From: a virus
Length of the DNA stretch: 64,000 nt
IMG/VR virus record: IMGVR_UViG_3300021962_007022
Coordinates: 1 to 64,000 of that record
Reading direction: 5' to 3' (one strand)
A model generated the notes under the pieces. That model did no database searches. It saw nothing but the letters and a program-made list of their open reading frames with translations, and was not told where the DNA came from. Positions 1,603-63,991 of this stretch are shown piece by piece (within the stretch, counting starts at the first letter, position 1; each line of letters opens with the position of its first letter). A program made the position numbers and the translations under genes.

Positions 1603-3591
1603 TTAGAATGTGCCTCCATCCAAATCAGCAAATACTGGGTAGCCAGTTGAGTTTGCTTGGAGAACTTGGCCATCTGTGCCAGCTGCTGTCACACCTAGTG
1701 GGCCAGCTGTATTGCCATATAGGATACCTCTGGCTGTTACAGTTGATAGACCTGTACCACCTGAACCAACTGCTAGAGCAGTCGATAGTGTTAAACTATT
1801 GGCAGTAATATTGACATTAACTGTTGAGTTAGCAGTAATTGTTACTGCTAGACTATTAGATATTAATGCGCCTGACTGTAGCCATGCATTCAAGTCTGCT
1901 AGAGCAAACGTTGGATCAGCAACGTTGACTGTGAGTACGCCACTTAGATCCTGGGTTAAACCCTTGAATAGGTAGTACTCATCTACTGATGCATCTCTGA
2001 ATAGACCAGTGTGAAGTTCCTGGCCACCAGTGAAGTAGTGACCAACAAAACCAATATCAACTAGGTCTGATGTATCGTTATTAGCAGCTAGTTGGATTAG
2101 TGGGTCAGAAATAACAACTGACTGGACATTTGTAGTAACAAGATTGCCTGTTACTGTCAAGTCGCCGTAGATTGCAACATCATGCTCAAAGTAACCATAA
2201 TCAGCATGGACATTACCAGTATGAACTTCAGACCAATATAGAGAGTTGTTACCTAAGCTATATGTTAGGTTGGCTGATGGAATAATATGAGTATTAACTT
2301 TACCGATAAATGATACAACATCAGTTGTGGCATTACCTAGCTTTGTATTACCTTGAACTTCTAGGTCGCCACTTACTGTTAGGTTAGCTACTGCTAATGT
2401 GCCAGTTGAGACAGCTGTAGAGTTAATAACAGTGTTGACAGTTGAGTTACCAATTGACAATATTGCTGTTGACAATACAACATTTGAGCCAACTGATACG
2501 GATGTGCCAACCTCGACTGTACCTGTAACATTAGCAAAGCCAGTAATTGTTGTATTACCAAGACTTGCTAGTGATGCATTTACAGATGTTGAATTGATTA
2601 CTGTATTAACAGTACTATTACCAACCGTTAGTACTGCAGTAACTGTTGTATTGCCAAGAGATGCTGTGTTAGCAACTGTCAATACGCCATTTACTGTTAC
2701 ATCACTTCTTGCTGTAATTGCACCACCAACATTTGCTGTCGATGTTACGTTGATAAAGCCAGCAATCTCTGTATTACCAGATGTTACAGATCCATCGACG
2801 CTGATCGATGTTGAATTGATAACAGTGTTAACAGTTGAGTTACCAACGATGATTGTATTGCCATCGATAACTAGATCTGGACCGATGGAAATCTGAGTGC
2901 CACGTAGAGCAATATTACCAGCTTGGATTGTCGTATTGACAGTGCTGTTGCCAATAAAGATTGCGCTTGTGTTGACTGTTACATTTGAACCAACTGTAAT
3001 TTGTCCAGCAACTGCAGCAGAGTTTGTTGCAAGAGCTGTTGAGTTAACAACTGTGTTTACTGTAGAGTTGCCAACTGTTAAACTTGAATTTACGATTACA
3101 TTATCTGGCAACGATACTGTAATATCTTGAGATGTAAATGTTACATTAACTTGGCCTGTTGTACCACTTATTGAATGGTTTTCCCATTGGCCAGCAGTAT
3201 TGTCGTAGACTAATAGTTGGTTATTAGCAGCAGATGTAATTGTAACATCTGTTAGGGAATCCAAACTTGATACAGGCGAGTCCCAATATACACCACCTGT
3301 TGAATTTGCAGAAAGAACTTGACCAGCTGTACCCAGCGCACCATTTGCTGTGATGAATGTTGAAACTAGATTGGCAACAATTACCTTATCGATGCCGCTT
3401 GTCGCATTCGCAACGAGAGCTTGATTTGCTGTAAGGATACCAGGATTATGGGTACCACCGATAGGGATTACAGCTGAGCTGTTACCTATGAATAGTTTAC
3501 CTGATAAGTACGAAAACGCTAGCTCGCCTTCGTTCAGTGTTGTTGGTGCCGCTGTCGCCGCACTTCTTTTAATTTTAATTAGATTTGCCAT
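1603..3591 (-). CDS. Tail-fibre-like protein with NSTVNTVINST repeats
   Basis: 662 aa. The N-terminus (MANLIKIKRSAATAAPTTL, then GELAFSYLSGKLFIG) is the conserved opening of many fibre-like proteins in aquatic T4-like phages. The body contains many copies of a unit around GNSTVNTVINST, about 25-60 residues apart, which suggests a beta-helical or triple-stranded shaft. The C-terminus has GTDGQVLQANSTG and ends in DGGTF. Its ATG shares bases with the stop of the upstream 94-aa gene (TGATGG), so the two are translationally coupled. Probable role: host-contact fibre or its shaft; the receptor cannot be read from sequence. Confidence 0.8.
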   Translation of the reverse strand: MANLIKIKRSAATAAPTTLNEGELAFSYLSGKLFIGNSSAVIPIGGTHNPGILTANQALVANATSGIDKVIVANLVSTFITANGALGTAGQVLSANSTGGVYWDSPVSSLDSLTDVTITSAANNQLLVYDNTAGQWENHSISGTTGQVNVTFTSQDITVSLPDNVIVNSSLTVGNSTVNTVVNSTALATNSAAVAGQITVGSNVTVNTSAIFIGNSTVNTTIQAGNIALRGTQISIGPDLVIDGNTIIVGNSTVNTVINSTSISVDGSVTSGNTEIAGFINVTSTANVGGAITARSDVTVNGVLTVANTASLGNTTVTAVLTVGNSTVNTVINSTSVNASLASLGNTTITGFANVTGTVEVGTSVSVGSNVVLSTAILSIGNSTVNTVINSTAVSTGTLAVANLTVSGDLEVQGNTKLGNATTDVVSFIGKVNTHIIPSANLTYSLGNNSLYWSEVHTGNVHADYGYFEHDVAIYGDLTVTGNLVTTNVQSVVISDPLIQLAANNDTSDLVDIGFVGHYFTGGQELHTGLFRDASVDEYYLFKGLTQDLSGVLTVNVADPTFALADLNAWLQSGALISNSLAVTITANSTVNVNITANSLTLSTALAVGSGGTGLSTVTARGILYGNTAGPLGVTAAGTDGQVLQANSTGYPVFADLDGGTF

Positions 3592-13112: not shown

Positions 13113-15164
13113 CTAGAACTTAACTACTAGTCTAATTTGTTCGTTTGTTGTGTTTGATCTTTGTATTGGCAATAGGTTTTGTAGATACAAAACTTCGCCT
13201 GAATACAACTTCAAATCAGGAACTGTTGTAATAGCTGTATTACCAGCTGCCTTAGAGTATTTAGCTCCCGATGCAACTATTTCTGGTGTATCGGCGCCAT
13301 TTACAATATAGCCAACACCATCCATTACAACATCGTTTACAAATGTTACTACACTATTATTGCCACGGGCTTGGGATCTATCAAGTCCAGTTAATACAAT
13401 TTTGGATGTATTGGCAAATGCAACCTTAGCCTGTACTTGAGAGCCGCCGCCTGCACCATCAGAACCAAGAATAAATTCACCTGGCTGTAATAGGGCAGGA
13501 GTGGTATTAGAGGCTGTGACAGTTACTGTTTGGTTGAAAAAAGCGTTGAAGAATCTTTTTCTAATATCAAATGTTTCTGCAACGACAGTATATGAAAATG
13601 GGTTTTTTAGTATTAGGCTTGTATTATTGGCAATGGATACTACTTCCTTTTCCTCATCCAAATAAATGATATTATCGCCAATGTTTAATTCTGTTGTGAA
13701 CTTTGTACCAACACCAGTCACGCTTAAGCTATTAGCAACAAGATCTATAGTTCCTGTACCATCAGATGTTGTAGAAGATAGAGGATTCTTTAATATACCT
13801 ACAGATCTAAATTCTACATCTGAAGAAAAAGAGAATGTTGAAGTGTTGGAAAACACAACGCCAATGCCAACTGACTGACAGTATAATTCATCCTTGACAT
13901 TTGATCCGTGGCCACCAATAGGTGACATAATGGCTCTGACTCTAGCTCCGCTACCAAAACCTACCGAGGTTTGAACGGAAACATTTGCTTGCTTATAGTT
14001 TCTACCAGGATTAATAATATCAATCATTTCAACGCTACCAGTAAAGTTAGTATTTGAAATGTTTTGCATTACCGCTGATGCTATACAGTTTGAGCCTGTC
14101 TTGGAATCAATTTTAATAAATGGGCCAATTGAATAGGGGTTGTTGTTTGATACCTGACCTGTAGAGAATGGTATTTTCAGAATAACAAAGTTGCCGGCAC
14201 CATTTGAAACATAGTCTCTGATTTCCTTAACATATGTTAAGTTTGTTGAATCATTAGTAATTGTAATAGCACAATTAGCAAAGAAGTCGTTTGATGTTGA
14301 TGTACCAGTTCTAATTTGGATAATGTAATTATTACCATTTGGATCAGTTCTAATATTACCACTGTCAGCTGGATATGCAGATCCATTAGCCTCTACAACA
14401 ATATTAAAAATAGAACCATCAATTGCCGAGCTCTTTACGTTGGCATTTTCAATTACAGGAATGTAATTTTCTGTAGCATATGTTAGATAATCAATATTAT
14501 TAATCGTGTACAAATATAACCATCTATAACCATCGGACTCTTCAGGTGGATACCCAACCTCTGTATGAGATGGTTCAACGGTTGAAATATCTCCAAGATC
14601 GTTATGAATACATTTGTATACTTTATTTTCTGATGTTACAACATAAAAAGCTTTTGCTGATAAATCTTGATCTTTATCGTCATATATTGCATAGGCTGTA
14701 TTAGATTGCCATTCTCTTTTTGTTACCATTGGCAAAACATCATCATCTGTAATTTTCATTCCAAACATTAATTCATCTTGAACAAATATTTGGGATTCAT
14801 AATTATCATCGATCGTGTTTGCAGTGATACTTTCATTTTCATATGGAGACTGTCTGGCAGCAAAGACGTAATAACTATCGTTTTTTAGTCTACCTTTCTT
14901 GTATGTGTTAGCTGATGCGTTTGCTGAATAGGCTGAGCCAACAACGATCAATGTGTTATTAACAATAGAGATAATCTGTCTTGATTCAGAACCAATGAAC
15001 AAGCGGTCGTCTACTGTAAAATCAACAGTAAAGTTTGTACCCGAACCAGTTACATTTGCAGACGAAGTGTTGACTGTTACTGTACCAGAAAGATCTGTGC
15101 TTAGTGTATTAGCAACAGAATCTATGAAAAGGTCAACAACATTTCGCTTAAATTTGGTTAACAT
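13113..15164 (-). CDS. 8: Baseplate wedge protein gp8-like, extended
   Basis: 683 aa, about twice the length of T4 gp8 (334 aa). The first third keeps the gp8 pattern: a small aromatic region (YYVFAARQSPYENE), VTKREWQ corresponding to the PRRDW region, KVYKCIHN, and ESDGYRWLYLYTI corresponding to the GYVWEYLF region. The C-terminal half is a beta-rich extension. In T4, gp8 dimers bind gp7 and gp10 in the wedge, and here the gene follows gp7 with the giant Thr-rich gene between them. A late promoter lies 28 nt upstream. The gp8 call is by motif order. Confidence 0.75.
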   Translation of the reverse strand: MLTKFKRNVVDLFIDSVANTLSTDLSGTVTVNTSSANVTGSGTNFTVDFTVDDRLFIGSESRQIISIVNNTLIVVGSAYSANASANTYKKGRLKNDSYYVFAARQSPYENESITANTIDDNYESQIFVQDELMFGMKITDDDVLPMVTKREWQSNTAYAIYDDKDQDLSAKAFYVVTSENKVYKCIHNDLGDISTVEPSHTEVGYPPEESDGYRWLYLYTINNIDYLTYATENYIPVIENANVKSSAIDGSIFNIVVEANGSAYPADSGNIRTDPNGNNYIIQIRTGTSTSNDFFANCAITITNDSTNLTYVKEIRDYVSNGAGNFVILKIPFSTGQVSNNNPYSIGPFIKIDSKTGSNCIASAVMQNISNTNFTGSVEMIDIINPGRNYKQANVSVQTSVGFGSGARVRAIMSPIGGHGSNVKDELYCQSVGIGVVFSNTSTFSFSSDVEFRSVGILKNPLSSTTSDGTGTIDLVANSLSVTGVGTKFTTELNIGDNIIYLDEEKEVVSIANNTSLILKNPFSYTVVAETFDIRKRFFNAFFNQTVTVTASNTTPALLQPGEFILGSDGAGGGSQVQAKVAFANTSKIVLTGLDRSQARGNNSVVTFVNDVVMDGVGYIVNGADTPEIVASGAKYSKAAGNTAITTVPDLKLYSGEVLYLQNLLPIQRSNTTNEQIRLVVKF

Positions 15165-15186: not shown

Positions 15187-18100
15187 CTAGTTATTTATAA
15201 TAACAGTTTCATATGTTGTTTGAATGGCTGTATCATAATTTGTGTCTGTTGCCTTATCGGTTATTCTAGATGTGGAGGTTGACTTAGATGTACCAACCAT
15301 TGTACCAGCTCCAAAATCTGTCAAGTAAGCAGTAGATGTATCAAATGCTGTAGCAACAGACGTTGTTCTAGTTGTATCAATTACTAATTCAGATGTGTCT
15401 GTATTTGTTAATAATTGTGTTAGTCGTGCTGTTTGTCTGTCACCAGATTCAAATACGGTTGCAGTTTCTACAGAGGTAAGTGTCTGATATTCAGTGTTTC
15501 TAATACTGAAGTCAATAACTGTTGTTGTGTTGACAGATGTTAAAAATACCGTTGCACCACTTGATGTGGTATACTGAGTTTCTGTACCATATGAAGTAGA
15601 TGTTGATGTATTAATTAGTGTGCCCTGGTTTGTTTGTGTAGCTGTCGACTTACTTGTCAACATATCACTAATAGTTACAGTAGTAGTGTTAAATGATGTG
15701 ATGGTGCCAGTGAATGTATTTCTAGATGTGCTAACTAATGTACCAGCGCCTGAATCAGTCTGGAATGTAGTAGAAGTACCTCTGGCTGTATCAGTATTGA
15801 CCGTAGTTGTTGTAGCAAATTGTGTAATCTTACTAGAGCCTGTAATTCTTGCTGTTTCTGTAACATATGCAGTTGATGTAGTTAAGAAAGTTGCTGTATC
15901 TCTTGTTGTTGCAAGACCAGTGCTATAAACAGTATCAAATGCTGTAGTTGTTGCTTTTTGAGTTAGTGGACCTGTGGTATATATTGTATTGTATGCTGTA
16001 GTTGTGCTCTTACCAGATGTTGTCAACGTATCTTTAGATGTACCAAATTCTGTAAACACTGTTGGATAAACTGTTAGTGTGCTCTTAGATGTACCATAAG
16101 CAGTTGTTACAAATGGATCTGTAGCAAACGCTGTTGTAAACACTGTAGATGTTTGCTTACCACTTACATATCTTGTGTATCTTGTTATTGTATTCTGAGA
16201 TGTATCCTTTAACGTACCACCACCAGAGTCAGTCTGGAATGTGGTAGCTGTAGATATCACTGACTGTGTAATTAGATAAACAGTGTCAAATGCTGTTGTA
16301 GTATTCTTTGTTGTATTGAATAGCGTACCGCCACCAGCAGCTGTCTGGAATATTGTTTCTGTAGTCTTAGATGTGCCAAAAGATGTAAGAGCTTGGGTTT
16401 GTCTGCTTGTATCAATTACGGTTGAGTAAGAAGACAGATATGATGTTGTAGTGTTAATTGTTGATTGATACTCAGACAGATATACTGTTGTTGTATTCTT
16501 AGAAGTACTTGTTAGAGCAATAGTTTGACCAGCAACTGTATTTTTTGTTGTGTCATACATTGAAGCTGTAGTCTTAGATGTTAGAAAGTATGTACCACTT
16601 GCTGTTATAGTAGTTTTTGTTGTTGAAGTTGTCTTATTTGTGTTTGTGGAAATACCTGTTGAGGTTGTCTTAGATGTACCAATTAATGTACCAGCCCCTG
16701 AATCAGTCTGGAATGATGTTGTTGTATCAAACACAGAAGATGTCTGGAATATAGTTTGTGTATTGAATGTAGTAGTTGTATCATATGCTGTACCCACAAC
16801 AGTTTCAAATACAGTCTCTGTACCAAAACTACTTGACATCAAGTATTGAGTTTCAGTGCTGTTGGTTGTATCAATTGTAGTCAATCTAGCTGTAACAGTT
16901 GATTTTTCCACAGCTGTAGCTTTAGTAATAAGAGACGATGTGTCCTTCAATGTACCAGCACCAGAGTCAGTCTGGAAGACAGTCTGGTATGTTGTGTTAA
17001 TATGGGTTACTGTATTTTTGGCGGTATCATAAGATGTTGTAATAACAGATGATGTTGATGTTGAAGTGCTTTTACTTGTTGATGTTGATTTAGATGTAGC
17101 TAAAGTAGAATCAAACACTGTATCAAAAATTGTTGCCAAACTACTTTGTGTTGTCTTAGTTGTGTTATATGCTGTACTACGTCCTGTTAACGTATTGAAT
17201 GATGTTGTAGTATCAGTTGATGTGGCAATATCAGTAACTTTAGATGTTCCTACTAAAGTGTTGTAATGGCTCAATGTGCTCTTGCCAGTAATTGTTGTTG
17301 TAGTTTTGTTTAGTGTAGTTGCAAAGCTAGTTAGGAATGATGTCGAGCTGTCAAATACTGTTGTTTGATTTGTACCTCTTTTTGTATCAAATACTGTTGT
17401 CTCAGTTGTTGATGTGTTGAACTGAGTTGTGCGAGATACTGTAGCAAAGTTACTAACGTAAACTGTTTGACGAGTTACACTTGTAGGCTTGAATGTAGCT
17501 TGAGAAGTACCAAAGAAGGTTAAAATCTCTGTACCCTTTGACAAAGTTGTATTTCTAGATGTAACCTGGCTTGTATCAAATGTTGATACAGTTAAGAATG
17601 CTGTAACAAATAGAGATGTCGTTGTTGCATTTGTATCATATCCCGTATCATACGTTGTTGTTGTATTTGTCTGATAAGAAGACGTTGTTGTTCTAGATGT
17701 GCCAGTAGCAAAAATTGTAGATCTACTTGTATCAAATACTGTTGAAGAAGTTACCAGAGTATTACGAGAAGTTGATGATGTTACAACTGTTAATGTATTA
17801 AATGCACTTGTTGTATCATATACAGTTGTTGTTGCTGTATCAAATACAGTAGATGTATTTTTACTTGTAGCATATGCTGTGCTAAATGTTATATAACGTG
17901 TAACTTGGTTTGTATTATATGATGTTTGGAATAATGTTGTTGTAGCAATTAATGTTGGGTTTGTTGTCTGGAATGATGTATCCCTTAGAGTATTTCTTGT
18001 TTCAAGAGCAAATGAGGTATCAGTAGTTCTACCAGTTAAAATATCTGTTGAAATAGTTGTTAAGACACCAGCAATTGTTTCATATGTTGTTTGGATGTTA

Positions 18101-21100
18101 GTGCTAAACAATGTTTGTGTAACAACAATTCTATACTCTGTTAGAATAGAGGTATCTGTACCCTTCAGCGTGCTTGATGTTGTGGCATAAACTGACTGCG
18201 TTATTGTATTTCTTGTTGTATTTGGTCCTGTATCAAATACAGTAGAAGTTGCATATGCGGTGTCAAATACTGATGAGGTACTCTTAGATGTTGCAATCTC
18301 AGTTGCATACGCAGTTTCAAAGGCTGTCGATGTTGTTATATTTGTTACATTTGTTGTGAATTTAGATGTAGCTGTTGCAATGTTGGTTGCATAGGCTGTA
18401 TCAATTGTTGTATCAAATACACTTGTAGTATTTTTTGCTGTATTGAATACTGTGTTAAAGACAGAGGTTGTTGTCTTATTTGTATTATATGCAGTGTCAA
18501 TAGCAGTCTCAAATATTGTTGAGGTACCCTTTGATGTTAAGATAACAGTATCACGAGAGGTATCTGTTGCTATTACAGTATTAAATACTGTATTTCTATT
18601 TGTTTCAAACGTGGTGTCTGTGTTATATGCAGTTGTTGTTTGAAATGCAGAAGCAGTCAACTTAGATGTTGACTTTGATGTTGCAGTAGAAGTATCTGTT
18701 GTTTTATTTGTTTCAAATACTGTGCTATAAATTGTGTCATATGCAGTTGTTGTTGCGTATGCAGTTCCAAATGTTGTTGTGGTTGCAGTGCTTTTTGACG
18801 TGGCAGCAGCTGTATTGAATAGCGTGCTAAACGTTGTATCTGTAGCCTTAGATGTACCAAAGTTAGTTTCAAATGTAGTATCTGTGGCCTTTGATGTATT
18901 TCTAGCTGTACCAAAGTTAGTTTCAAATGTAGTAGTTGTATCAAATACTGTAGTTGTAGCAACGCTCGTTGCGGTTGCCTTACTTGTTGATGTGGATGTA
19001 GCAACTAATGTGTTATATGCAGTCGTTGTGGCAACACTTGTTCCTGTAACTGCAGCAGTACCTCTTGCTGTATCAAATATAGTAGTTGTACTTCTGGATG
19101 TAACAAATACAGTAGTTGTAGCTGCTAGATAGGTAGTAACAAAAGTTGTAGACGTTACAGATGATGTTGCTGTATCAAATATAGATGTAGTATTTCTACT
19201 TGTACCAGTGGCAGCTGCAGTACTTCTTGCTGTATCAAAGACTGTTGTAGTACCTCTAGATGTACCAAATATTGTCAGTGTTTGATAACCTGTGACATAT
19301 GATGTTGTAGTTTGATATGTCGTGTTAAATGTTGTTGTTGTGTTGAATGTTGTAGTTGTAGATTTAGATGTTGCAGTAGATTTAGATGTTGCAGTGGCTC
19401 TAGATGTGTCTGTGGCTCTAGATGTTGCAGCACTTGTTATGCGTGATGTATTGACGCTGCTCTGAATTGTCCAAATAAATTGAACACGGCCGTCGGCACC
19501 ATTTGCGCCATCGCCACCGTTAGATTGCGTATTAGGTGAACCGCCACCGCCGCCACCGCCTGGAGCTGAGCCAGCTGATCCATTACCATTATTAACACCA
19601 TCTACACCACCAGCACCTCCTGCACCACCACTTGCAGCCGCACCACCAGCACCGCCGCCAACGTATTGATTGCCATTACCTGCGGTACCAGCTGTATTTA
19701 CATCACCTCCAGAAGCAAACCCACCAAAACCGCCGATACCAGCATAAACATTTGCAGGTATACTACTGTCTGGCCAAGCATTTTGGCCACCGCCGCCAGC
19801 ACCAGCATCAATATTTACACCTGTACCTGTAACTGTAGATGATCCCCCTTGGTCTGCATACGAAAATTGATCGTCTACTTCTGCACCAGGTGGATTACCA
19901 AAGCCATTGCCCCCCAGACCCACATTATATGTAAATTGTGTTACCCCACCCGTCACGTTAACGGTTTTTTGAACATAGGCGCCACCGCCACCACCACCGC
20001 CGCCGCCACCTTGCGAGCCGACAACCATACCACTTCCGCCACCGCCGCCGCCGCCCCAAGCTTTGATTACTACAGAAACAGCACCAGCTGGAGCTGTGAT
20101 TGTAGCTGAGCCAGAATTATAGGTATCAGTTTGTTCAGATGTGGAAGTTGTTTGGTAGGTTGTAGTATAGCTTGTATCAAATGTAGTTGTAGTGCCAAAT
20201 GTGGTTGTTGTATCAAACGATGTTGTAGTATTAAACAGCGTTGTTGTAGATCTAGAAGTTGCTGTAGCTTTACTTGTTGCAATTGTTTTTTCAGTTGCTT
20301 TACTTGTTCCACGGTTTGTTTCTGTTAGAATATTTGTATCAAATGCTGTTGTCGTTGCAAAATTAGTTGCATATGTTGTGTTAAACGTTGTTGTAGTGCC
20401 AAATGCAGTTGTTGTTATAACACTTGTTGCAGTGTTAAAAATTGTGGTTGTACTTCTGGCAGTATTTGGCGATACAGTAGTTTGTGTTGCTATATTTGTT
20501 TCAAATGATGTTGTCGTTGCAAAGTTAGTTGCGTATGATGTATTAAATGAAGTTGATGTGTTGAACAACGATGTTGTTGACTTGCTTGTATTGTAGCCTG
20601 TGTCATACACTGTAGTGAATACAGTAGACGTGTTGAACAACGATGTTGTTGACTTACTAGTTGATGTTAATTTGCTAGTATTAAAGACTGTAACAAATGC
20701 TGTTTCAAACACTGAGGCTGTTGACTTAGACGTATTGAATACAGTTACATAAAGGGATGTCGTGCTTCTAGTTGTTGAACCAGCAGTATCAAAAATTGTA
20801 ACAAAGGTAGTTGTTGTATTTGTGGCCTTTGATGTGCTGACAGTTGTATCAGTTGATCTAGAGGTAGCTAAATTTGTATCCTTAGATGTATTGAATACAG
20901 TTGTTGTTCCATATGATGATGCATACAACGTATCATAAACGGTAGAAGTTGCCTTAGTAGTATCTGTGCTCTTACTTGTTTCAGTGGCAAAATTTGTATT
21001 ATAGACAGTATTTCTATTTGTTTCGTAAGCAGTCTCAGTGGCGTAAACTGTTGTATAGGCAGTACTATAAACTGTTGTAGTTGTTCTATTACTATCAAAA

Positions 21101-21651
21101 ATTGTTGTTATTGTTGTATCATAAACAGTAGTTGTAGATTTATTTGTTACACCAGTAGTTTCAAATACTGTTGATGTTGTTTTTGTTGTTGCATAGGATG
21201 TAGCAATGACTGTATCAAATACAGATACTGTATTAAATATTGTCTGGTAAGCTGTAACATATTGAGATACAGTATTCTTAGATGTAGCAATAACTGTATC
21301 AAATACTGAGATATATGCTGTTGTTGTTGATTTAGATGTTGCAACAGTTGTATCAGTGGCCTTAGATGTAGAGTAGGCAGTAACAAATGTTGTAGTTGTA
21401 CCTGTTCCAATATTTGTATTGAATGTTGAAGATACAGTAGTTTGCGTAGAGTATGCTGTAAGTAGTTCTGTTAATCTAATTTGTTCAATTTGAAAACTTG
21501 TCTCAATAACACTTCGTGGTGTCTGTTTTTTAATTTCAACTAAAGCGTCTGCACTAGGTGCATTGACAAATACAACACTACCACCAGAAATGGTATAATC
21601 GGTACCTAGTACCTGCAATACTCCATTTACTTTAACTGTTAGTGTACTCAT
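15187..21651 (-). CDS. Giant Thr-rich repeat protein with Gly-rich insert (fibre-like)
   Basis: 2154 aa. Residues 1-45 (VKVNGVLQVLGTDYTISGG, then VVFVNAPSADALVEI) resemble the N-terminal attachment part of T7-type tail fibres. Almost all of the rest repeats aromatic-x-Thr and Ser-Lys-x-Thr motifs (VFDT, IFNT, AYNT, TSKST, TSKAT), with successive Thr mostly 4 or 6 residues apart; even spacing fits beta-strands. Residues of about 515-735 form a Gly-rich domain with poly-Gly runs (SATITAPAGAVSVVIKAWGG opens it). The gene overlaps the gp7 stop by ATGA. I infer a long shaft or appendage bound to the baseplate. No enzyme domain is visible. Confidence 0.8.
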   Translation of the reverse strand: MSTLTVKVNGVLQVLGTDYTISGGSVVFVNAPSADALVEIKKQTPRSVIETSFQIEQIRLTELLTAYSTQTTVSSTFNTNIGTGTTTTFVTAYSTSKATDTTVATSKSTTTAYISVFDTVIATSKNTVSQYVTAYQTIFNTVSVFDTVIATSYATTKTTSTVFETTGVTNKSTTTVYDTTITTIFDSNRTTTTVYSTAYTTVYATETAYETNRNTVYNTNFATETSKSTDTTKATSTVYDTLYASSYGTTTVFNTSKDTNLATSRSTDTTVSTSKATNTTTTFVTIFDTAGSTTRSTTSLYVTVFNTSKSTASVFETAFVTVFNTSKLTSTSKSTTSLFNTSTVFTTVYDTGYNTSKSTTSLFNTSTSFNTSYATNFATTTSFETNIATQTTVSPNTARSTTTIFNTATSVITTTAFGTTTTFNTTYATNFATTTAFDTNILTETNRGTSKATEKTIATSKATATSRSTTTLFNTTTSFDTTTTFGTTTTFDTSYTTTYQTTSTSEQTDTYNSGSATITAPAGAVSVVIKAWGGGGGGGSGMVVGSQGGGGGGGGGGAYVQKTVNVTGGVTQFTYNVGLGGNGFGNPPGAEVDDQFSYADQGGSSTVTGTGVNIDAGAGGGGQNAWPDSSIPANVYAGIGGFGGFASGGDVNTAGTAGNGNQYVGGGAGGAAASGGAGGAGGVDGVNNGNGSAGSAPGGGGGGGSPNTQSNGGDGANGADGRVQFIWTIQSSVNTSRITSAATSRATDTSRATATSKSTATSKSTTTTFNTTTTFNTTYQTTTSYVTGYQTLTIFGTSRGTTTVFDTARSTAAATGTSRNTTSIFDTATSSVTSTTFVTTYLAATTTVFVTSRSTTTIFDTARGTAAVTGTSVATTTAYNTLVATSTSTSKATATSVATTTVFDTTTTFETNFGTARNTSKATDTTFETNFGTSKATDTTFSTLFNTAAATSKSTATTTTFGTAYATTTAYDTIYSTVFETNKTTDTSTATSKSTSKLTASAFQTTTAYNTDTTFETNRNTVFNTVIATDTSRDTVILTSKGTSTIFETAIDTAYNTNKTTTSVFNTVFNTAKNTTSVFDTTIDTAYATNIATATSKFTTNVTNITTSTAFETAYATEIATSKSTSSVFDTAYATSTVFDTGPNTTRNTITQSVYATTSSTLKGTDTSILTEYRIVVTQTLFSTNIQTTYETIAGVLTTISTDILTGRTTDTSFALETRNTLRDTSFQTTNPTLIATTTLFQTSYNTNQVTRYITFSTAYATSKNTSTVFDTATTTVYDTTSAFNTLTVVTSSTSRNTLVTSSTVFDTSRSTIFATGTSRTTTSSYQTNTTTTYDTGYDTNATTTSLFVTAFLTVSTFDTSQVTSRNTTLSKGTEILTFFGTSQATFKPTSVTRQTVYVSNFATVSRTTQFNTSTTETTVFDTKRGTNQTTVFDSSTSFLTSFATTLNKTTTTITGKSTLSHYNTLVGTSKVTDIATSTDTTTSFNTLTGRSTAYNTTKTTQSSLATIFDTVFDSTLATSKSTSTSKSTSTSTSSVITTSYDTAKNTVTHINTTYQTVFQTDSGAGTLKDTSSLITKATAVEKSTVTARLTTIDTTNSTETQYLMSSSFGTETVFETVVGTAYDTTTTFNTQTIFQTSSVFDTTTSFQTDSGAGTLIGTSKTTSTGISTNTNKTTSTTKTTITASGTYFLTSKTTASMYDTTKNTVAGQTIALTSTSKNTTTVYLSEYQSTINTTTSYLSSYSTVIDTSRQTQALTSFGTSKTTETIFQTAAGGGTLFNTTKNTTTAFDTVYLITQSVISTATTFQTDSGGGTLKDTSQNTITRYTRYVSGKQTSTVFTTAFATDPFVTTAYGTSKSTLTVYPTVFTEFGTSKDTLTTSGKSTTTAYNTIYTTGPLTQKATTTAFDTVYSTGLATTRDTATFLTTSTAYVTETARITGSSKITQFATTTTVNTDTARGTSTTFQTDSGAGTLVSTSRNTFTGTITSFNTTTVTISDMLTSKSTATQTNQGTLINTSTSTSYGTETQYTTSSGATVFLTSVNTTTVIDFSIRNTEYQTLTSVETATVFESGDRQTARLTQLLTNTDTSELVIDTTRTTSVATAFDTSTAYLTDFGAGTMVGTSKSTSTSRITDKATDTNYDTAIQTTYETVIINN
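15192..15199 (-). promoter_or_regulatory. T4-type late promoter TATAAATA
   Basis: Exact TATAAATA on the minus strand, overlapping the last codons of the 2154-aa gene and ending 27 nt before the ATG of gp8. Position and spacing suit an internal late promoter that restarts transcription after the very long upstream gene. Confidence 0.7.
15250..19440 (-). repeat. Degenerate coding repeats of the Thr-rich protein
   Basis: The DNA is an irregular array of short related units encoding [F/Y]-x-T and S-K-x-T motifs; on the plus strand they appear as recurring words such as gtatcaaat and cttagatgt. Units are 12 or 18 bp and are not identical copies. A second tract of the same kind lies at 20130-21480, and the two are separated by the Gly-rich coding region. 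Confidence 0.75.
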
Positions 21652-23633
21652 GCTCCACCCGGGATAGCAAACGTTGTCGTTGACCCATCCCCTATATATG
21701 CTTGCTGTGTAACGTCTGGTGTTGCAGCCGTGACTTCATTACTTACAAGAACTCTACCAAACTTCTCAACACCAGCTGGGTGCCAAAGCTTTCTTAGAAG
21801 GTCACTATACTTATTGAATACAACTGATGATCTTACTTCATAAGAATAATCTTGATAGTAATAGCTATCGTGGATGTATTTGTCTGAGTTTAAGAAACCA
21901 CGAGTTGATTTGAAATTACCTTCACCCTGACCCTGTCTTGTTAGTAATACAGTACCAGATGTTATTAGGTTTGTGTTGGATAATGAAACAAGAAGAGCTT
22001 CTTCTCTTTGTTCATAGCCTAGACCTGAGTCAATAACTTTGACTTCTCCTAGGGCATCATCGCCAAATCCAGCAACGCCAGTCACAACGGCGTTATTACC
22101 AAGATACCCATTGCCACGCGCACCACGACCTGCTGGGTGTTCTTGATCAGGTAATTCCATTAGTCCTATTACAGTATCTGTGACTGTAATTTGTACATTG
22201 GTTGTATAATCCTGGCCAGGATTGGTTGTAAAGATTTTAGATATTGTACCAACTTCATAGTTTTGATAGCTCAGGGCATCTCTGAGGATTGTATCAAATC
22301 CTGCTGCGACATTTGAAGCAAGACCATAACCATTTCCAGTCGGATAGGATAATTCACCAATAAGTGTATTATCGACGTTGTTAGCTGTACCAATATAATT
22401 CAATGTTTGGCCAATTGTATTAATTTTTATGGCTGAGGAGAAAAGATATTTAATATCTGAAAGAGCACCAATTCTCAAACCGGCCTGGTCGCCACCACCT
22501 GCAATTGCTGGTACTAGGTTTGCGCCAACACCTGCTGAAGCTCCACCAGTTGAATTTGCTATGGTAACTGTGACAGTAAAAGCATTTGTTGTTAAAAATC
22601 CATTGCCGCCATTAACGACATTAATATTATTAGCAAGGATTGCACCACCGCCACCCAAAGCACCAACTAGGGTTATCGTTGCATTTGCCGTTCCATTTGA
22701 ACATGTAATAACATCTGTATTGCTATAACCTGAGCCCCCGGCCTCTACTACAAGTCCTGTTACAGGACCTTTGATTAAGAAAACAGTATTATTAACTGTA
22801 TAACCTGATCCACCATCTTCTAGATTAAATGAAATTGTACCATCTAGCTCTTTAAGTTTTGTTACAACTACCTTGCCGCGAGAACCTCTACCTTGTACTT
22901 CAAGTATGTCACCAACAGTATAACCAAAAGGCGAGCTTCTATTTGATACATCAACCTCTGTCATTGAACCAATGATCTTTGGTGAGTTGATTGCTGTTAC
23001 CGATGGAACTTCACCATCTGGTAGTTTGGACTCATCAATCAGAACAACTTCATCATGCCTAAAATTACCAACAACGTCTGTTAGGTAGAATATGTTTATG
23101 TTTTTGTTATTAATGTATTTTGTCTGGAAGCTTTCAACATAAGCTCTTGCACCAGATATACGGCCTCTAATAAATTCACCTACAAACAAACTATTGAATG
23201 GCTTATAAGACACTTCAAGATAAATGTCTCTATTCCAATCACCGTCTGATAATCTAAAGACATCATCACCTGGTTTATATACACTAATGTTGTCAGCAAA
23301 CAGAAGCTGAAACAAAAGTTTTAGGCCTCGCTCTGTACCCTTAGAACCATATACTTCTTTAATGTGCTTTTGTAGTAGGACCTTATCACCAGCAATATCT
23401 TCTGGGATAGGGAACATATATTTCTTTTTAAAATTATTGATAAACACATCTATAGTTTTATCAATGTCTCTATATTCCAGCAATCTTCTGGAATCGTAGA
23501 CAACTTGGTCTTGAGATTCAAGCCACTCAAAATATGCTTTTACAAATGCAATGAATAGAGGACCCTCTTCCTTATAGATAGAAGGGAATTGATTAGCTAT
23601 GAATGGTGATATAAACTTTTCTAATTCTTTCAT
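21648..23633 (-). CDS. 7: Baseplate wedge protein gp7-like (C-terminal part)
   Basis: 661 aa versus 1032 in T4. It matches the C-terminal half of gp7: FPSIYKEEGPLFIAFVKAY with YFEWLE, YRDIDKTIDVFINNF, VYGSKGTERGLKLLFQLLF, ISVYKPGDDVFRLSDG, and near the end LLRKLWHPAGVEKFG, which corresponds to the T4 VHPVGFG region. The N-terminal half of T4 gp7 is missing, and the middle is filled with Gly-rich beta segments. In T4, gp7 joins the gp6 pair of each wedge to gp8 and gp10. The ATG overlaps the gp6 stop (TAATG), and its own stop overlaps the next gene. Confidence 0.8.
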   Translation of the reverse strand: MKELEKFISPFIANQFPSIYKEEGPLFIAFVKAYFEWLESQDQVVYDSRRLLEYRDIDKTIDVFINNFKKKYMFPIPEDIAGDKVLLQKHIKEVYGSKGTERGLKLLFQLLFADNISVYKPGDDVFRLSDGDWNRDIYLEVSYKPFNSLFVGEFIRGRISGARAYVESFQTKYINNKNINIFYLTDVVGNFRHDEVVLIDESKLPDGEVPSVTAINSPKIIGSMTEVDVSNRSSPFGYTVGDILEVQGRGSRGKVVVTKLKELDGTISFNLEDGGSGYTVNNTVFLIKGPVTGLVVEAGGSGYSNTDVITCSNGTANATITLVGALGGGGAILANNINVVNGGNGFLTTNAFTVTVTIANSTGGASAGVGANLVPAIAGGGDQAGLRIGALSDIKYLFSSAIKINTIGQTLNYIGTANNVDNTLIGELSYPTGNGYGLASNVAAGFDTILRDALSYQNYEVGTISKIFTTNPGQDYTTNVQITVTDTVIGLMELPDQEHPAGRGARGNGYLGNNAVVTGVAGFGDDALGEVKVIDSGLGYEQREEALLVSLSNTNLITSGTVLLTRQGQGEGNFKSTRGFLNSDKYIHDSYYYQDYSYEVRSSVVFNKYSDLLRKLWHPAGVEKFGRVLVSNEVTAATPDVTQQAYIGDGSTTTFAIPGGA

Positions 23634-25432
23634 TATGCCCTGATGCCACGCGCAGAAACAGTTAGATGAACAGCTTCTACTTGAAGTACTTTATTAGCAT
23701 TTGTTTCTATATCTAACTTCTTTGTTCTACCGTAAATTTCTAATTCATTGTCTAAACCAACATCTTCATATATGATAGCGCCAATGGATATTGTACCATT
23801 GGTATAATCTACAGTACCAACTTTATCCTTTAGTAGTTGTACGACGCCATTAACAGTAGATACAATCATTAAGTTACCTTGGGTGTCGTCTTTTATCTTA
23901 GCAAGATAATCAATATCATTTAGATTATACGTAAACAAAGATGACTCAATTGTAGCAGTTGTATCTTCATAGATTTTTCTTGATGTGGATACTTCTCTCT
24001 TCAATTCATTTTCAAATGAGAAAGCAATTCTGAATGGAATACCTGTATCAACCTCAACATTCTTAATAATTCTTAGTTCTGTATTATTACTAATGATAGC
24101 AGCTTCTGAATCATCAATTGCCTTGACAAGTTTTGAGTATCTAAGATCAGAACCAAACTTGGCAAGATTGGCATCACCAAAATTGAGAATAGTTGATTCG
24201 ACAAGAGCCTCAATATCTCTTTGTGATCTTGTTGTTTCGTTAATATTATATAGAACTTCTGTCACAACTTCTGCAAAGAAGTATTCTGGATCTACAACAA
24301 CTGGATCAATAGAAATAGCAGATCTTTCTTTTAAGAAATTATAAATCTGTGTCTTCAATGGTGTAGGCAACTTGATACCACCAATTGGTTTAGCTGCAAC
24401 AATTACCTTACCATATTGCTTAGGTTCTGTCTCTTCACCACCATATGCTGTGACAATTTCTAGGGATGGAAATGCTTGCTTTGTTAGAGCAATATAATCT
24501 TCTACTGTGACAGCTCTATTCTGAGTAGGGAAGTAACGAGGCGCATTGAACTTGATTTCATCATCTGTCTCGTGCTCTGAACCTGATGCAGCAGCACTAA
24601 CTGTTGCTATTGCTATAGTAGAATAACCCTGAATAGCATTTGGAGCAGTAAATGCTTCAACACCATTTGCATCAATACCATTTGTTTCTCTATAGTTTAT
24701 AGTAACTAAATTACCATCTGTAAGTTCTTTACCAATATCACCATTACCAAAAACAAGCTCGTATAGATGGTCTTCAGCACCCTGTATAAAGTAAATGTTG
24801 TCTGTGTTGTTTAGACCAAATAGGAAGGTTTCTCTGTTATACTTTGTTTCTGTCGTTGCAGTGTTTGATTCTCTGATGGTAACATTAATTGAATTGATAT
24901 CTACGTTTGCAGACTGTAGTAGATAGCGCGATGATGCGTTTGCCACAAATACTTCTTTAACAATATTGCCTTCGTAAACAGCAACATTTGAAACCGCATA
25001 GACGCCATCTACAGGTCTAACAATAATCGTTTCATCGGTTGTAAAGAAGTAGGTTGTATTATCATCTGTCCTACCATTGATCTCATAATATTTTGGAATT
25101 GTAATAGAATCAGGAGCATCGCTAGGTGTAATAGTAATGTTAACATAGGCAACAGCAGCTGTTCTAGAACGTGGCGTATAGTTTAGTTCTTTAGCATGTG
25201 AAACAATTGATTCTCTAAGCTGAGCTGTATCTAAGAACATTTCACTACCAACAAGATTTAGATACACACCATTCATGAAGGTATTGTAAGCAAGAAGATC
25301 CAGCAATACAGATAGGTTCGAGCCTTCAAAATCGTAATCTTGGAATTGATCCTGCTGTGACAGGAATGTTCTTAGGCTAGTCTTATAGTTTTGTAAATCT
25401 AGCTCAGAAGTTGTTAGGAATCCATTTGCCAT
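23633..25432 (-). CDS. 6: Baseplate wedge protein gp6
   Basis: 599 aa, close to T4 gp6 (660 aa). The N-terminus (SELDLQNYKTSLRTFLSQQD, then FEGSNLSVLLDLLAYNT, then LREsIVSHAKELNYTPRS) is typical of gp6 and the wider gpJ-like baseplate family. GDIGKELTDGNLVTINY and DDEIKFNAPRYFPTQNRAV follow, the latter being the most conserved core. gp6 forms the ring of the wedges around the hub and binds gp25 and gp53. The gene follows gp25 directly, with a 1-nt gap. Confidence 0.92.
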   Translation of the reverse strand: MANGFLTTSELDLQNYKTSLRTFLSQQDQFQDYDFEGSNLSVLLDLLAYNTFMNGVYLNLVGSEMFLDTAQLRESIVSHAKELNYTPRSRTAAVAYVNITITPSDAPDSITIPKYYEINGRTDDNTTYFFTTDETIIVRPVDGVYAVSNVAVYEGNIVKEVFVANASSRYLLQSANVDINSINVTIRESNTATTETKYNRETFLFGLNNTDNIYFIQGAEDHLYELVFGNGDIGKELTDGNLVTINYRETNGIDANGVEAFTAPNAIQGYSTIAIATVSAAASGSEHETDDEIKFNAPRYFPTQNRAVTVEDYIALTKQAFPSLEIVTAYGGEETEPKQYGKVIVAAKPIGGIKLPTPLKTQIYNFLKERSAISIDPVVVDPEYFFAEVVTEVLYNINETTRSQRDIEALVESTILNFGDANLAKFGSDLRYSKLVKAIDDSEAAIISNNTELRIIKNVEVDTGIPFRIAFSFENELKREVSTSRKIYEDTTATIESSLFTYNLNDIDYLAKIKDDTQGNLMIVSTVNGVVQLLKDKVGTVDYTNGTISIGAIIYEDVGLDNELEIYGRTKKLDIETNANKVLQVEAVHLTVSARGIRA

Positions 25433-43875: not shown

Positions 43876-44457
43876 TTACGTGTTTCTGACGGCTGCTAGC
43901 AGGCATTGGGTAGCCTGTTTTTCGTTAGATATGAAGTGGTCTAAGACCTGGAACCTGGAATCGATGTATTTGCCAAATTCATCGAACGTCCACTCTCTTA
44001 CATGGCAGACGTTATCAGGTGGACCATCATAGCCTCTTGGGAACAACATTCGCTCTGGAGTAGAGAAGACAATCAGTTTTGGATTTGCTTGTTCGATTGT
44101 ATCCAAGAGAGGGTCTGGATCAGGAATGTGTTCAATGACATCAGAACAGATGATCATATCATAGCCATGAAAGACTTCAAAACTATCAGACCAGTCTCTA
44201 TTTGGATAAGTCGCTCTTAACCAATTAACAGTCGGCGTAAGATCAGTGCCAAGTGTCTTTACGTCACCAAAGTTCTTCAAGAGCTTATAACCAGACCCTG
44301 TGCCTATATCCCAAACACTTTTAAGATTGTGAAGATTGAATTGAAGACGAGCATACTCATAGACTTCCTTCTGCCATTCGTCCTTCATGTTCGTATCATT
44401 GTAGAACATGTTCTCTAAACGAACCTTATAGCCTTCTCTTATAAAATAGTTTTTCAT
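43876..44457 (-). CDS. Class I SAM-dependent methyltransferase
   Basis: 193 aa. Motif I VWDIGTGSGYKLLKNF, then TLGTDLTP and YDMIICSDVIEHIPDPDPLL (motif 4 type DxIEHI), followed by LIVFSTPERM. This is a type-11-like small-molecule or lipid/sugar methyltransferase fold. It overlaps the TylF-like gene by 4 nt, so they are translated together. Substrate unknown. Confidence 0.85.
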   Translation of the reverse strand: MKNYFIREGYKVRLENMFYNDTNMKDEWQKEVYEYARLQFNLHNLKSVWDIGTGSGYKLLKNFGDVKTLGTDLTPTVNWLRATYPNRDWSDSFEVFHGYDMIICSDVIEHIPDPDPLLDTIEQANPKLIVFSTPERMLFPRGYDGPPDNVCHVREWTFDEFGKYIDSRFQVLDHFISNEKQATQCLLAAVRNT

Positions 44458-45080
44458 AGTTTGTGTATCACCAAAGATCCGTCTTCTATTGATAGGTTGT
44501 AGTCTTCTTCTACGTTGGCCAAGTATTCATCCACAGCCAACTTACATCCAGGCCAGTCTGAGTAATCATCTACAATGATATAGCCACCTTTGACGACTCT
44601 TGGAAAGAGGACTTCCATTTCAATCTTGGTAGAAGAGTACCAGTCTGTATCCAATCTACAAAGAGCGATTGCCTCTGGCCCAAATACTTCTAGTGTATCT
44701 TCTACTTTACCTTCAATAAGGTAGCAATGGTCACTGTACGTTTTTGTTACTTGTCTTAGTGTGTCTCTAACGATATCAATCCCAGCTCTACACCAATCTG
44801 AATACTCACCATCCTTCAATTCGCTGTATCGTCTTAAAGCATCTGGATGATCCTTATCACCAGGCTCTGGCATACCTTCAAATGTATCATAGATAAAGAT
44901 TAGCTTACTAACATTATGATCTAATACATGCTGTAACATGAGGGCAGCAAGTCCGCCCCTCCACGTACCGCATTCTACAATATCGCCGCCAAGGTTGTTT
45001 ATCTTAGGTAGTATATTTCGAAGAGATTGGATTCTCTTCTCACTACACATTGTGTTATTCTTTACTATTGTCTCTATCAT
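44454..45080 (-). CDS. TylF-like O-methyltransferase
   Basis: 208 aa from ATG 45080 (AAGGAA 6 nt upstream); a longer frame lacks a site. GGDIVECGTWRGGLAALMLQ is motif I, FIYDTFEGMPEPGDKDHPD is a hallmark of the macrocin O-methyltransferase family, and the C-terminal GGYIIVDDYSDWPGCKLAVD matches the metal-binding part. Family members methylate sugar hydroxyls. Together with the neighbouring methyltransferase it may modify a surface glycan or nucleotide sugar. Confidence 0.87.
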   Translation of the reverse strand: MIETIVKNNTMCSEKRIQSLRNILPKINNLGGDIVECGTWRGGLAALMLQHVLDHNVSKLIFIYDTFEGMPEPGDKDHPDALRRYSELKDGEYSDWCRAGIDIVRDTLRQVTKTYSDHCYLIEGKVEDTLEVFGPEAIALCRLDTDWYSSTKIEMEVLFPRVVKGGYIIVDDYSDWPGCKLAVDEYLANVEEDYNLSIEDGSLVIHKL

Positions 45081-45297
45081 GCTGTTCCTTAATGATCGCT
45101 TCATACTGACGGAACAGCTCATCGAACTTTGCATTATAGAGTGCTTCGATACCAATTAGCATGTTGGCAATCTTATCTTCTCTACCAGTCTCAAGAGGAG
45201 CGTCCATAAGATATTTAGCCACAGTCTTAACGTCACTCGTGACATTCCAGCATTCCATGATCTGCTGCTCAAATTCAAAACGATCAAACTTCTTCAT
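45055..45297 (-). CDS. Conserved small early protein
   Basis: 80 aa from ATG 45297 (MKKFDRFEFEQQIMECWNVT). VKTVAKYLMDAPLETGREDK, then IANMLIGIEALYNAKFDELF follow. It is a known kind of small T4-like phage protein without function. It overlaps both neighbours. Confidence 0.7.
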   Translation of the reverse strand: MKKFDRFEFEQQIMECWNVTSDVKTVAKYLMDAPLETGREDKIANMLIGIEALYNAKFDELFRQYEAIIKEQHDRDNSKE

Positions 45298-49306: not shown

Positions 49307-50041
49307 CTAAAGGACTTTTTTAAACACGTATAAAGTGGGCCATCTAGGGTGTGCTTTCCACCCACCAAGCGCTTTCATCTGCCACTTATCCTGGATATGA
49401 GGTGTAATTGATTGTACAGTATGTCGTTGGAAAATGAAGGACTTCATTCCACTATCATTTTCTGGATCATCATTATTGACTGGACGAATAGAATGTTTAT
49501 CGACATCAATAGGATTCCCTTCGAATACAGGTTTAAGTCTATAGTTGATGTCATACTCCATCGTTTGTTGTTTACTATTATTCACATACAAAGTAACAAT
49601 AAATTTACCACCGATGTTAAAGTGTGGGTGGATTTGATCAAGACACTCAATAAGTTTGTATAGAGGTAGGTGGGTAAAGACTGATTGAGCAATGCCCATA
49701 TCAAACTTAACATTGAACTTGCTAATATCAAAATTACTATTGACATCAAAGTTATCATAGGATGAGTGTAATCCAACAGCAGGGAGTTCAATATCTAACC
49801 CTGCATCAATCATTTCTCTATGCTTATCAATACCAAAATAATTAGCACCAATATGCCTAATGAAATGAACACCACCCCTCAGTGATCCACAACCAATATC
49901 AATGAATTTCATGTGATGATGAAGGCCATGCTCGATGCATAGATCAAACTGTAGCCTGCCAATCGTATCCCATACCTCAGGACAATCACTACCTGTGAAA
50001 ATTCTATGGTCTTGATTGTTGATATGATACTTAGAATTCAT
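49307..50041 (-). CDS. Class I SAM-dependent methyltransferase
   Basis: 244 aa. KFIDIGCGSLRGGVHFIRHI is motif I with the SAM-binding GCGS, YFGIDKHREMI motif II, and DMGIAQSVFTHLPLYKLIEC followed by GGKFIVTLYV motifs 4-6. The GCGSLRGG variant is common in glycan-cluster methyltransferases. It overlaps the next gene by 11 nt. Target unknown. Confidence 0.85.
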   Translation of the reverse strand: MNSKYHINNQDHRIFTGSDCPEVWDTIGRLQFDLCIEHGLHHHMKFIDIGCGSLRGGVHFIRHIGANYFGIDKHREMIDAGLDIELPAVGLHSSYDNFDVNSNFDISKFNVKFDMGIAQSVFTHLPLYKLIECLDQIHPHFNIGGKFIVTLYVNNSKQQTMEYDINYRLKPVFEGNPIDVDKHSIRPVNNDDPENDSGMKSFIFQRHTVQSITPHIQDKWQMKALGGWKAHPRWPTLYVFKKVL

Positions 50042-50594
50042 TTGCTAATAAATTTTTATAGTCAATAGTTGATATTGGGTTAGGCATTAGATCAACCATC
50101 AAATGAACTCGACCAATATCAGTTGGATTGATAACGCTATGTTCCACAACATTATTAATCTCATAAACATTGCCAGCCTCTAGATGGAATTTTTCACTAT
50201 CAAGAACAAATACTATCTTCGAATCTGTTATAATTGGAATGTGTATTCTATGCGTATCAATAAACCATCCACCATCAGTGTGGGGAATGATATTTGTTTT
50301 CGGCTTCAGTTTAACAAGAACAATAGCAGCAGCTTTTGTATTATAAAAGCTTTCGAGATTATTGACCAGTGGTCTGATTGCCTTCCAGATATCTGTATCT
50401 TGGTTGTACAGCTTTGGCTTCTCACCATACTCAGAGAACATGAATGGGTAGGACTCTGTGGCAGCATGGACTTTATATCTATTCTGCCTCAGGTCCCATT
50501 CCATCCATTGCTCGCTGGTTAGAGCATTTACGCACTCTTCAATCTTTGAGGTATCAACCTTTCCAATCTTATAGAGTAAGCCTGGCAGCCTCAT
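50031..50594 (-). CDS. Asp/Asn beta-hydroxylase-like 2OG oxygenase
   Basis: 187 aa. IIPHTDGGWFIDTHRIHIPI holds the His-x-Asp and the Arg/His of the cupin core; VYEINNVVEHSVINPTDIGR and VHLMVDL hold the distal His and the 2OG-binding Arg, as in the Asp/Asn hydroxylase family (PF05118 type). These act on proteins or peptide-linked residues. The N-terminal part WMEWDLRQNRYKVH is family-like. 4-nt overlap with the HNH gene. Confidence 0.82.
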   Translation of the reverse strand: MRLPGLLYKIGKVDTSKIEECVNALTSEQWMEWDLRQNRYKVHAATESYPFMFSEYGEKPKLYNQDTDIWKAIRPLVNNLESFYNTKAAAIVLVKLKPKTNIIPHTDGGWFIDTHRIHIPIITDSKIVFVLDSEKFHLEAGNVYEINNVVEHSVINPTDIGRVHLMVDLMPNPISTIDYKNLLANEF

Positions 50595-55264: not shown

Positions 55265-55885
55265 TTATTTGTTTGGACCAAACACCATATTAATGACTAC
55301 TCTTGTCTCATGTTCAATAGGTGTTGAGCCAGCATGCCATGTGTTGGATGGGTACATGGCAGCTGTACCCTTGATAGGTCTCATTCTACCTATGCACTGA
55401 TCTCCATCAAAGAAAAACGTATCTCCATCACTGTCATTGACATAGTATAAAACTGTAATAAACTTATCTAATCTTGTATCCGGATGAGGAGCATTCATAG
55501 TCCATTTAGGTCTAATTGTTTGAATGTTCGTCATCAATCTATACACAGCATACTCTCTAGGAATATATGTAGTTTGTATATAGTCAACAAGCTTGGCAAC
55601 ACTTGGAAAATGTTTGTTGTAACGTGTATTTGGATTGCCACGAATGTCAATGAATCTAACATCAGGCTTCGCAAACCTATTTATATACTCATCAGTAAAT
55701 CTTTGGGTGTCGACAACAGGACCATACTTTGTATTAATACTATCAAGAAGAGCCCTTTGATTAGAATCTGACACATCGTAAAAATAATTTGTCATTCCAA
55801 CATATTGCCAGTTTGGCTTGATGCTTAGCAACTCTTTTTCCACTGAGTCAGCTAATGAAGGATCTATTCTAATAGTGTCAACCAT
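55265..55885 (-). CDS. 2OG-Fe(II) oxygenase A (prolyl-hydroxylase-like)
   Basis: 206 aa. NAPHPDTRLDKFITVLYYVN holds the His-x-Asp region, DSDGDTFFFDG the next strands, and PSNTWHAGSTPIEHETRVVI the distal His and 2OG Arg; NMVF ends the core. It shares the LYYVNDSDG and TxHAG segments with oxygenase B (55962-56525), so the two are paralogues that flank tRNA-Gly. Target unknown; peptidyl proline or another side chain is plausible. Confidence 0.83.
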   Translation of the reverse strand: MVDTIRIDPSLADSVEKELLSIKPNWQYVGMTNYFYDVSDSNQRALLDSINTKYGPVVDTQRFTDEYINRFAKPDVRFIDIRGNPNTRYNKHFPSVAKLVDYIQTTYIPREYAVYRLMTNIQTIRPKWTMNAPHPDTRLDKFITVLYYVNDSDGDTFFFDGDQCIGRMRPIKGTAAMYPSNTWHAGSTPIEHETRVVINMVFGPNK

Positions 55886-55897
55886 ACATTACCTAAA

Positions 55898-55972
55898 TGG
55901 AGCGGGATGCGAGAATCGAACTCGCGCGTGAACTTTGGCAAAGTTCTAGGCTACCATTACATCAATCCCGCT
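55898..55972 (-). tRNA. tRNA-Gly (GCC)
   Basis: Loop TTGCCAA on stem GAACT/AGTTC; CCA encoded. The last 11 nt of the oxygenase B gene lie inside its 5' end. Confidence 0.95.
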
Positions 55973-56525
55973 TTGAAAATATAATATTAATCACATACCT
56001 GCTTTTATTTATACATGGTACCTGTCCTGCGTGGACAGTGTTCGATCGGAACAGGGCACCAGTACCCCTGACAGGTGTTGTTTCAAATGCAATCTTACCA
56101 TCTTTGAAGAATACAGTCTGACCATCACTATCATTAACATAGTAGAGGAATGTAATCTTATCACCATCGTCCGAATCAACATGAGGAATGTTAAGAAGCA
56201 ATTCAGCATCTCTCAACTGGGTAGTCAAGTTACCCATGACTCTTCTTACCTCATAGTTTGAAGGCAGAATGTTTGCTATACACCATTGAGTCAATGGCAT
56301 AATGTACTTTTTATCGTTCTCTGGCGTTTTGGAATTTGGAAAGAAGTAGTGAGTGAGGCGCGGTAGATCAGCTATTGTGTAGGTATCTTGATCTACAGGG
56401 TGGCTACCTCTTGGTTCTTCACCCAATGTGTGAGTGAAGAAGAACCATGGGATCTTTGTACTTGTTACCCATAACTCAACATCATCAACAATTTTTTTAG
56501 GAATATTATTGACCAATTTAATCAT
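55962..56525 (-). CDS. 2OG-Fe(II) oxygenase B (prolyl-hydroxylase-like)
   Basis: 187 aa. NIPHVDSDDGDKITFLYYVN has the His-x-Asp, DSDGQTVFFKDGKIAF follows, RSNTVHAGQVPCINKSRYVI holds the distal His and Arg. Paralogue of oxygenase A across tRNA-Gly. Its final codons and stop overlap the 5' end of that tRNA by 11 nt, so the C-terminus and the tRNA acceptor share sequence. Confidence 0.83.
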   Translation of the reverse strand: MIKLVNNIPKKIVDDVELWVTSTKIPWFFFTHTLGEEPRGSHPVDQDTYTIADLPRLTHYFFPNSKTPENDKKYIMPLTQWCIANILPSNYEVRRVMGNLTTQLRDAELLLNIPHVDSDDGDKITFLYYVNDSDGQTVFFKDGKIAFETTPVRGTGALFRSNTVHAGQVPCINKSRYVINIIFSKRD

Positions 56526-56533
56526 AAAATTAT

Positions 56534-57115: not shown

Positions 57116-57130
57116 AATCAATCCTCAAAG

Positions 57131-63934: not shown

Positions 63935-63991
63935 AAATGTAATTTTTCTCAAGCTGGTAGACTGGACCTTGGTATGAACCAAATACCAATT

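Follow-up and report, generated by a model that had tools for sequence, protein, structure and literature searches.

A split baseplate gp7 with a long threonine-parity array and a glycosyltransferase-like partner family in phages

Overview

The window, a stretch of 64,000 nucleotides taken from a viral record of 68,244 bases that is probably a fragment, encodes on its minus strand a Thr-rich protein of 2154 residues (15187–21651, ATG start), which we call gp7B because it corresponds to the second half of a split gp7. Our preferred reading, to which we assign a probability of roughly 0.5, is that gp7B forms a beta-structured and probably O-glycosylated baseplate fibre, joined to the baseplate through the split gp7 and served by an enzyme of the phrog_26179 type. 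The even spacing of Thr, the restriction of this class of array to phages and the sugar-transferase-like partner together suggest that gp7B may serve as a long fibre, probably coated with sugar, in contact with the host.

Gene structure and selection

The open reading frame lies exactly where the first-pass annotation had placed it, and the impression of a small residue alphabet is borne out: outside the N-terminus and a Gly-rich insert, gp7B contains 34% T, 12% S, 7% A, 6% F and 4% Y. The N-terminal residues are followed by array block 1 (residues 47–508; 20128–21513), which runs for 462 residues without a parity exception, and by the Gly-rich insert (residues 513–725; 19477–20115), which was also recognized earlier and matches Pfam PF21722 Gly_rich_2 with an E value of 1.6e-8. 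Array block 2 (residues 742–2154; 15190–19428) has a conserved C-terminus, AIQTTYETVxINN. The presence of the insert varies, and several relatives of gp7B are without it. Searches of the array against Pfam, PHROGs and PDB sequences matched nothing, the insert being the sole match.

gp7B is a real gene under purifying selection, with dN/dS values of 0.10–0.21 against its close relatives L001, L002, L018 and L028. The complete relatives (these four together with L023, L024 and L026) range from 1699 to 2251 aa in length, and L001 carries 54-residue insertions relative to the window. Thus, the length variation proposed from the sequence is found, but the 'low-complexity DNA' held responsible for it was overstated, because tandem repeats are few (best TRF score of 91). 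A neutral low-complexity expansion without function would fit the small alphabet and the 54-residue insertions; it is hardly credible, however, given the dN/dS values, the scarcity of tandem DNA repeats and a parity pattern, described below, that persists at about 50% identity.

Split gp7 at the baseplate locus

The genes surrounding gp7B encode baseplate wedge proteins. Directly upstream, gp7A (21648–23633, minus strand, 661 aa) is the N-terminal part of a T4-gp7-like baseplate wedge protein, matching phrog_17744 (E = 4.5e-140) and PF23786 Baseplate_wedge (E = 5.4e-8). It is preceded by a gp6-like wedge protein (23633–25432, minus strand; PF21379, E = 1.4e-17; phrog_219, E = 5.7e-164), and gp7B is followed by a gp8-like wedge protein (13113–15164, minus strand; phrog_438, E = 2e-73). 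The phrog_17744 core of gp7A and the position between gp6-like and gp8-like genes identify a T4-like gp7. gp7B alone has no gp7 match, and a gp7 core and an array are fused in a single reading frame in Stenotrophomonas phage DLP_6 and in L077, L079 and L093.

The border between the two genes is precise. gp7A ends with ...YIGDGSTTTFAIPGGA, gp7B opens with MSTLTVKVNGVLQVLGTDYTISG, and both share the stop/start overlap ATGA at 21648–21651 (GTGA in L016 and L028). Each of the 16 sequences extending to the border keeps this overlap, with an ATG start in 14 and GTG in two, so a sequencing error at this position is very unlikely. The border also cuts a small domain in two. The T7-fibre-like N-terminus noted in the first-pass annotation is the second half of this domain (gp7B residues 1–46; 21514–21651), and the first half (QQAYIGDGSTTTFAIPGGA; 21648–21707) belongs to the end of gp7A. 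The joined halves match PF03906, the T7 tail fibre N-terminal domain, with an E value of 4e-5 and a score of 23.8 bits, which lies below the Pfam cut-off of 25.2, and the second half alone, likewise below the cut-off, gives an E value of 0.0059. In the AlphaFold model, residues 1–46 form beta strands with pLDDT values of 54–82, and hhalign aligns the second-half domain to the contiguous domain of other gp7 proteins at 96% (E = 1.7e-9).

In the giant gp7 relatives from viral contigs, the equivalent domain is unbroken and follows the same gp7 core. T4 gp7 and the giant gp7 proteins (phrog_17744, phrog_2885, phrog_701) share with the window the gp7 core and the placement between gp6 and gp8; the giant proteins hold the contiguous form of the domain that is split here, and their C-terminal part is not Thr-rich, with 7–12% T past the core motif. 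A close counterpart is DLP_6 gp7 (AAY80_265, KU682439.2), which combines a gp7-like core with a Thr array of this kind (41% identity over 240 residues) in a genome that also carries a phrog_26179 partner. It differs in being a single reading frame without the split T7-fibre-like domain and in having another inserted domain ahead of the array.

From these comparisons we infer that the gp7 gene underwent fission within the small beta domain, gp7B being the C-terminal half, and that both chains rejoin via the split T7-fibre-like domain. The two proteins would be made in tandem from the ATGA overlap and would associate non-covalently by completing the domain. Alternatively, programmed frameshifting might join gp7A and gp7B into one gp7 of ~2,800 aa, as the splitting of the domain exactly at the border and the fused form in other phages could suggest. 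However, a reading of the border by eye found no slippery heptamer, and the retained start codon (ATG in 14 of 16, GTG in two) fits re-initiation, which leaves frameshifting with little credence.

Two-residue parity of the array

The earlier observation that Thr residues lie mostly 4 or 6 residues apart is correct, with 47 steps of 4, 36 of 6 and 4 of 8 between residues 65 and 508, but it captures half of an underlying two-residue parity rule. The longest Thr chains in steps of 4 or 6 span 250 residues in block 1 and 422 in block 2, compared with shuffled maxima of 92 and 106. Between residues 47 and 508, all F, Y, K and R residues fall on one parity and all A, N, D and E residues on the other, with no exception among 164 informative residues; the longest exception-free run in 200 shuffles was 61 residues. 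Counted over residues 65–508, the first parity holds all 30 F, 22 Y, 16 K and 7 R, and the opposite parity all 33 A, 28 N, 14 D and 9 E. Segmentation of block 2 gives 12 parity switches, none earlier than residue 1174.

Conservation follows the same pattern. In a comparison with three diverged relatives, Thr is the best-conserved residue of the array (0.69), and within block 1 it is conserved at 0.81 on face X and at 0.39 on face Y. The net length shifts measured from one exact anchor to the next are even throughout in the pairs window/L001, window/L002, L001/L002, window/L018 and L001/L018, and are mixed in other pairs, chiefly distant ones with few anchors. The gap parity of pairwise alignments (626 even, 208 odd) was set aside as evidence, because in-phase alignment is biased toward even gaps.

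An uninterrupted beta conformation whose turns are even would produce this alternation, and the result would be a single long array with two faces. One face would carry the conserved Thr residues alternating with F, Y, K and R, and the opposite face small and acidic or amide residues. The stalk so formed may project from the baseplate and display inserted binding domains, the Gly-rich one in the window and a different one in DLP_6. The first-pass annotation had proposed a beta-fibre or an ice-binding-like array on a baseplate; the baseplate link and the beta-type alternation agree with our analysis. Ice binding is not supported, since the steps of 4, 6 and 8 are irregular, no ice-protein family of Pfam is matched and a phage baseplate is the proposed location.

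The AlphaFold check that had been recommended was run on single chains of residues 1–320 and 1700–2154. It returned strands, but no confident model of the array, the mean array pLDDT being 35 and 32, values which by themselves would suit disorder as well as a fold that is unfamiliar or oligomeric; the conserved parity speaks against simple disorder. A disordered, mucin-like glycosylated brush, in which parity stems from a recurring acceptor motif for the enzyme (aromatic/basic-x-Thr) and not from a fold, would be consistent with the low AlphaFold confidence, with Thr at every 4 or 6 residues and F, Y, K or R at −2, and with the association of arrays and partner genes described below. However, A, N, D and E are also bound to parity, through steps of 6 and 8 and over hundreds of residues, and this weighs against the brush because an acceptor motif alone would not require such parity; we regard the brush as distinctly unlikely.

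Distribution of the arrays

A DNA pattern describing a single chain of Thr at even spacings, preceded by aromatics at −2, was used to scan viral contigs, in which it found at least 119 stretches. The same pattern gave no match in ~85,000 bacterial and archaeal genomes; among the control scans, an odd-spaced pattern gave none and a reversed pattern one. In all 79 loci analysed, the match lies within an open, in-frame, Thr-containing array, and the longest exception-free parity among them extends over 889 residues (L119). Searches of phages and plasmids with the array by tblastn returned DLP_6 only or nothing, an outcome that says little because BLAST masks low complexity. No description of these Thr arrays was found in the open-access literature searched, and one may exist elsewhere. 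The Thr-parity arrays appear to be an undescribed class that occurs in many phages and is absent from the scanned bacterial genomes. One of the reading frames, L101 (1212 aa), contains an intein-like stretch (ending ...VYKLDVEPNDVFYANGILTHN) within or behind its Thr array.

The partner gene phrog_26179

A protein of ~300 aa usually follows the stand-alone arrays; it belongs to phrog_26179, a family whose function is not annotated in PHROGs. A partner model matches 50 of the 56 array loci that have more than 900 nt downstream, a count that includes the 16 loci from which the model was built. In the converse scan, an array ends no more than 700 nt upstream in 62 of 78 partner loci under a strict test, and about nine partner loci have no array nearby. 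The first-pass annotation had seen the array and missed this glycosyltransferase-like partner, together with the split gp7 domain and the phage-wide distribution.

The partner was found by tblastn in 28 records of cultured phages. Six of the seven inspected (DLP_6, Lullwater, BL198, Quill_5.2, KVP40 and F86) encode a protein that resembles an array and has Thr at regular spacing; in DLP_6 this protein is gp7, and the partner gene is not adjacent. The Cr30 proteins gp253 and gp254 were tested as arrays and found unsupported, so Cr30 counts as a phage with a partner and no demonstrable array. The annotation of the partner in KVP40 (KVP40.0256), Caulobacter phage Lullwater and DLP_6 (AAY80_002) goes no further than hypothetical protein; the array protein of KVP40 is KVP40.0254. 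The partner was not found in the 68-kb window record. The contigs of L026 and L077 have one, as does the 188-kb phage to which L018 belongs. This 188-kb relative of the window phage also carries a second, stand-alone Thr array (G001:C1:56561-60372, part of it in L181) with the partner directly behind.

Pfam searches with 11 members of the partner family gave Capsule_synth in three of the 11 (best E = 0.0016), GT52 (5e-4), a polysialyltransferase (0.019) and MGDG synthase (0.064). The four top-ranked families are all glycosyltransferases, every match being under the cut-off. Families of this kind are GT-B enzymes that have an HP motif, and the partner itself has an invariant KxHPxT motif. An NCBIfam search gave no convincing glycosyltransferase match, and a profile search of the PDB returned none. 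These weak hits point to a GT-B-like glycosyltransferase. Since the Pfam matches are below the cut-off and the PDB search was empty, glycosylation is plausible rather than established. In L066, a GT4-like gene adjoins the partner. A second conserved gene stands behind the partner at L095:7042-7746, L131:9284-9994, L180:2696-3448 and L181:3561-4496, with homologues in DLP_6 (E = 1e-6) and L181 (E = 7e-12); Pfam gives it no function.

The Thr face of the array would probably be O-glycosylated by a phage enzyme of the phrog_26179 family. A competing explanation is an unglycosylated beta fibre, a self-folding or trimeric shaft for which the phrog_26179 protein serves as assembly chaperone or acts on another target. 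Several observations would suit an unmodified shaft: parity and the conservation of Thr are by themselves enough to suggest beta structure, the partner family has no curated function and its glycosyltransferase hits are sub-threshold. In contrast, the agreement of the four top Pfam families, the invariant KxHPxT motif and the GT4-like gene next to the partner in L066 favour a sugar-transferring enzyme, and we consider the unglycosylated fibre rather unlikely.

Extending the glycosylated-fibre reading beyond the window, we propose tentatively, and with less assurance than for gp7B itself, that Thr-parity arrays and a dedicated phrog_26179 enzyme constitute a two-gene system, undescribed so far and spread across phages, for making beta fibres with a glycan coat on the virion; its range would take in T4-like and T7-like phages and others, among them the model phage KVP40. 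If so, many phages would encode long fibres by a two-faced sequence rule not recognized before, along with an enzyme to modify them, and virion glycosylation would become testable in phages already in culture. The parity rule provides a simple finder for such proteins where profile searches fail.

Comparison with known repeat proteins

The serine-rich repeat glycoproteins of Gram-positive bacteria contain long Ser/Thr repeats that are O-glycosylated by dedicated transferases and form a stalk for a binding domain. gp7B differs in that its Thr residues (T 34%, S 12%) combine with F, Y, K and R in steps of 4 and 6, the Ser-x dipeptides that define the serine-rich proteins are missing, the gene is a phage gene and the glycosylation is proposed from the partner. 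Bacterial ice nucleation proteins likewise have repeats of even length that carry ladders of Thr and Tyr; they use fixed coils of 16 residues, whereas gp7B has neither a fixed coil length nor a Pfam match to them.

Other features in the window

A TonB-dependent receptor of 685 aa (53097–55154; PF00593, E = 1.8e-33; PF07715, E = 4e-20) is unusual for a phage. The regions 43876–45155, 49307–50594, 55265–57121 and 62205–63982 encode methyltransferases including one of the TylF type, an Asp/Asn beta-hydroxylase-like protein, two 2OG-Fe(II) oxygenases and a carbamoyltransferase, the C-terminal part of which may be the next reading frame; these proteins could act in sugar or protein modification. 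Lastly, a 662-aa protein (1603–3591) with repeats of the GNSTVNTVINSTSV type is another repeat-built structural protein.
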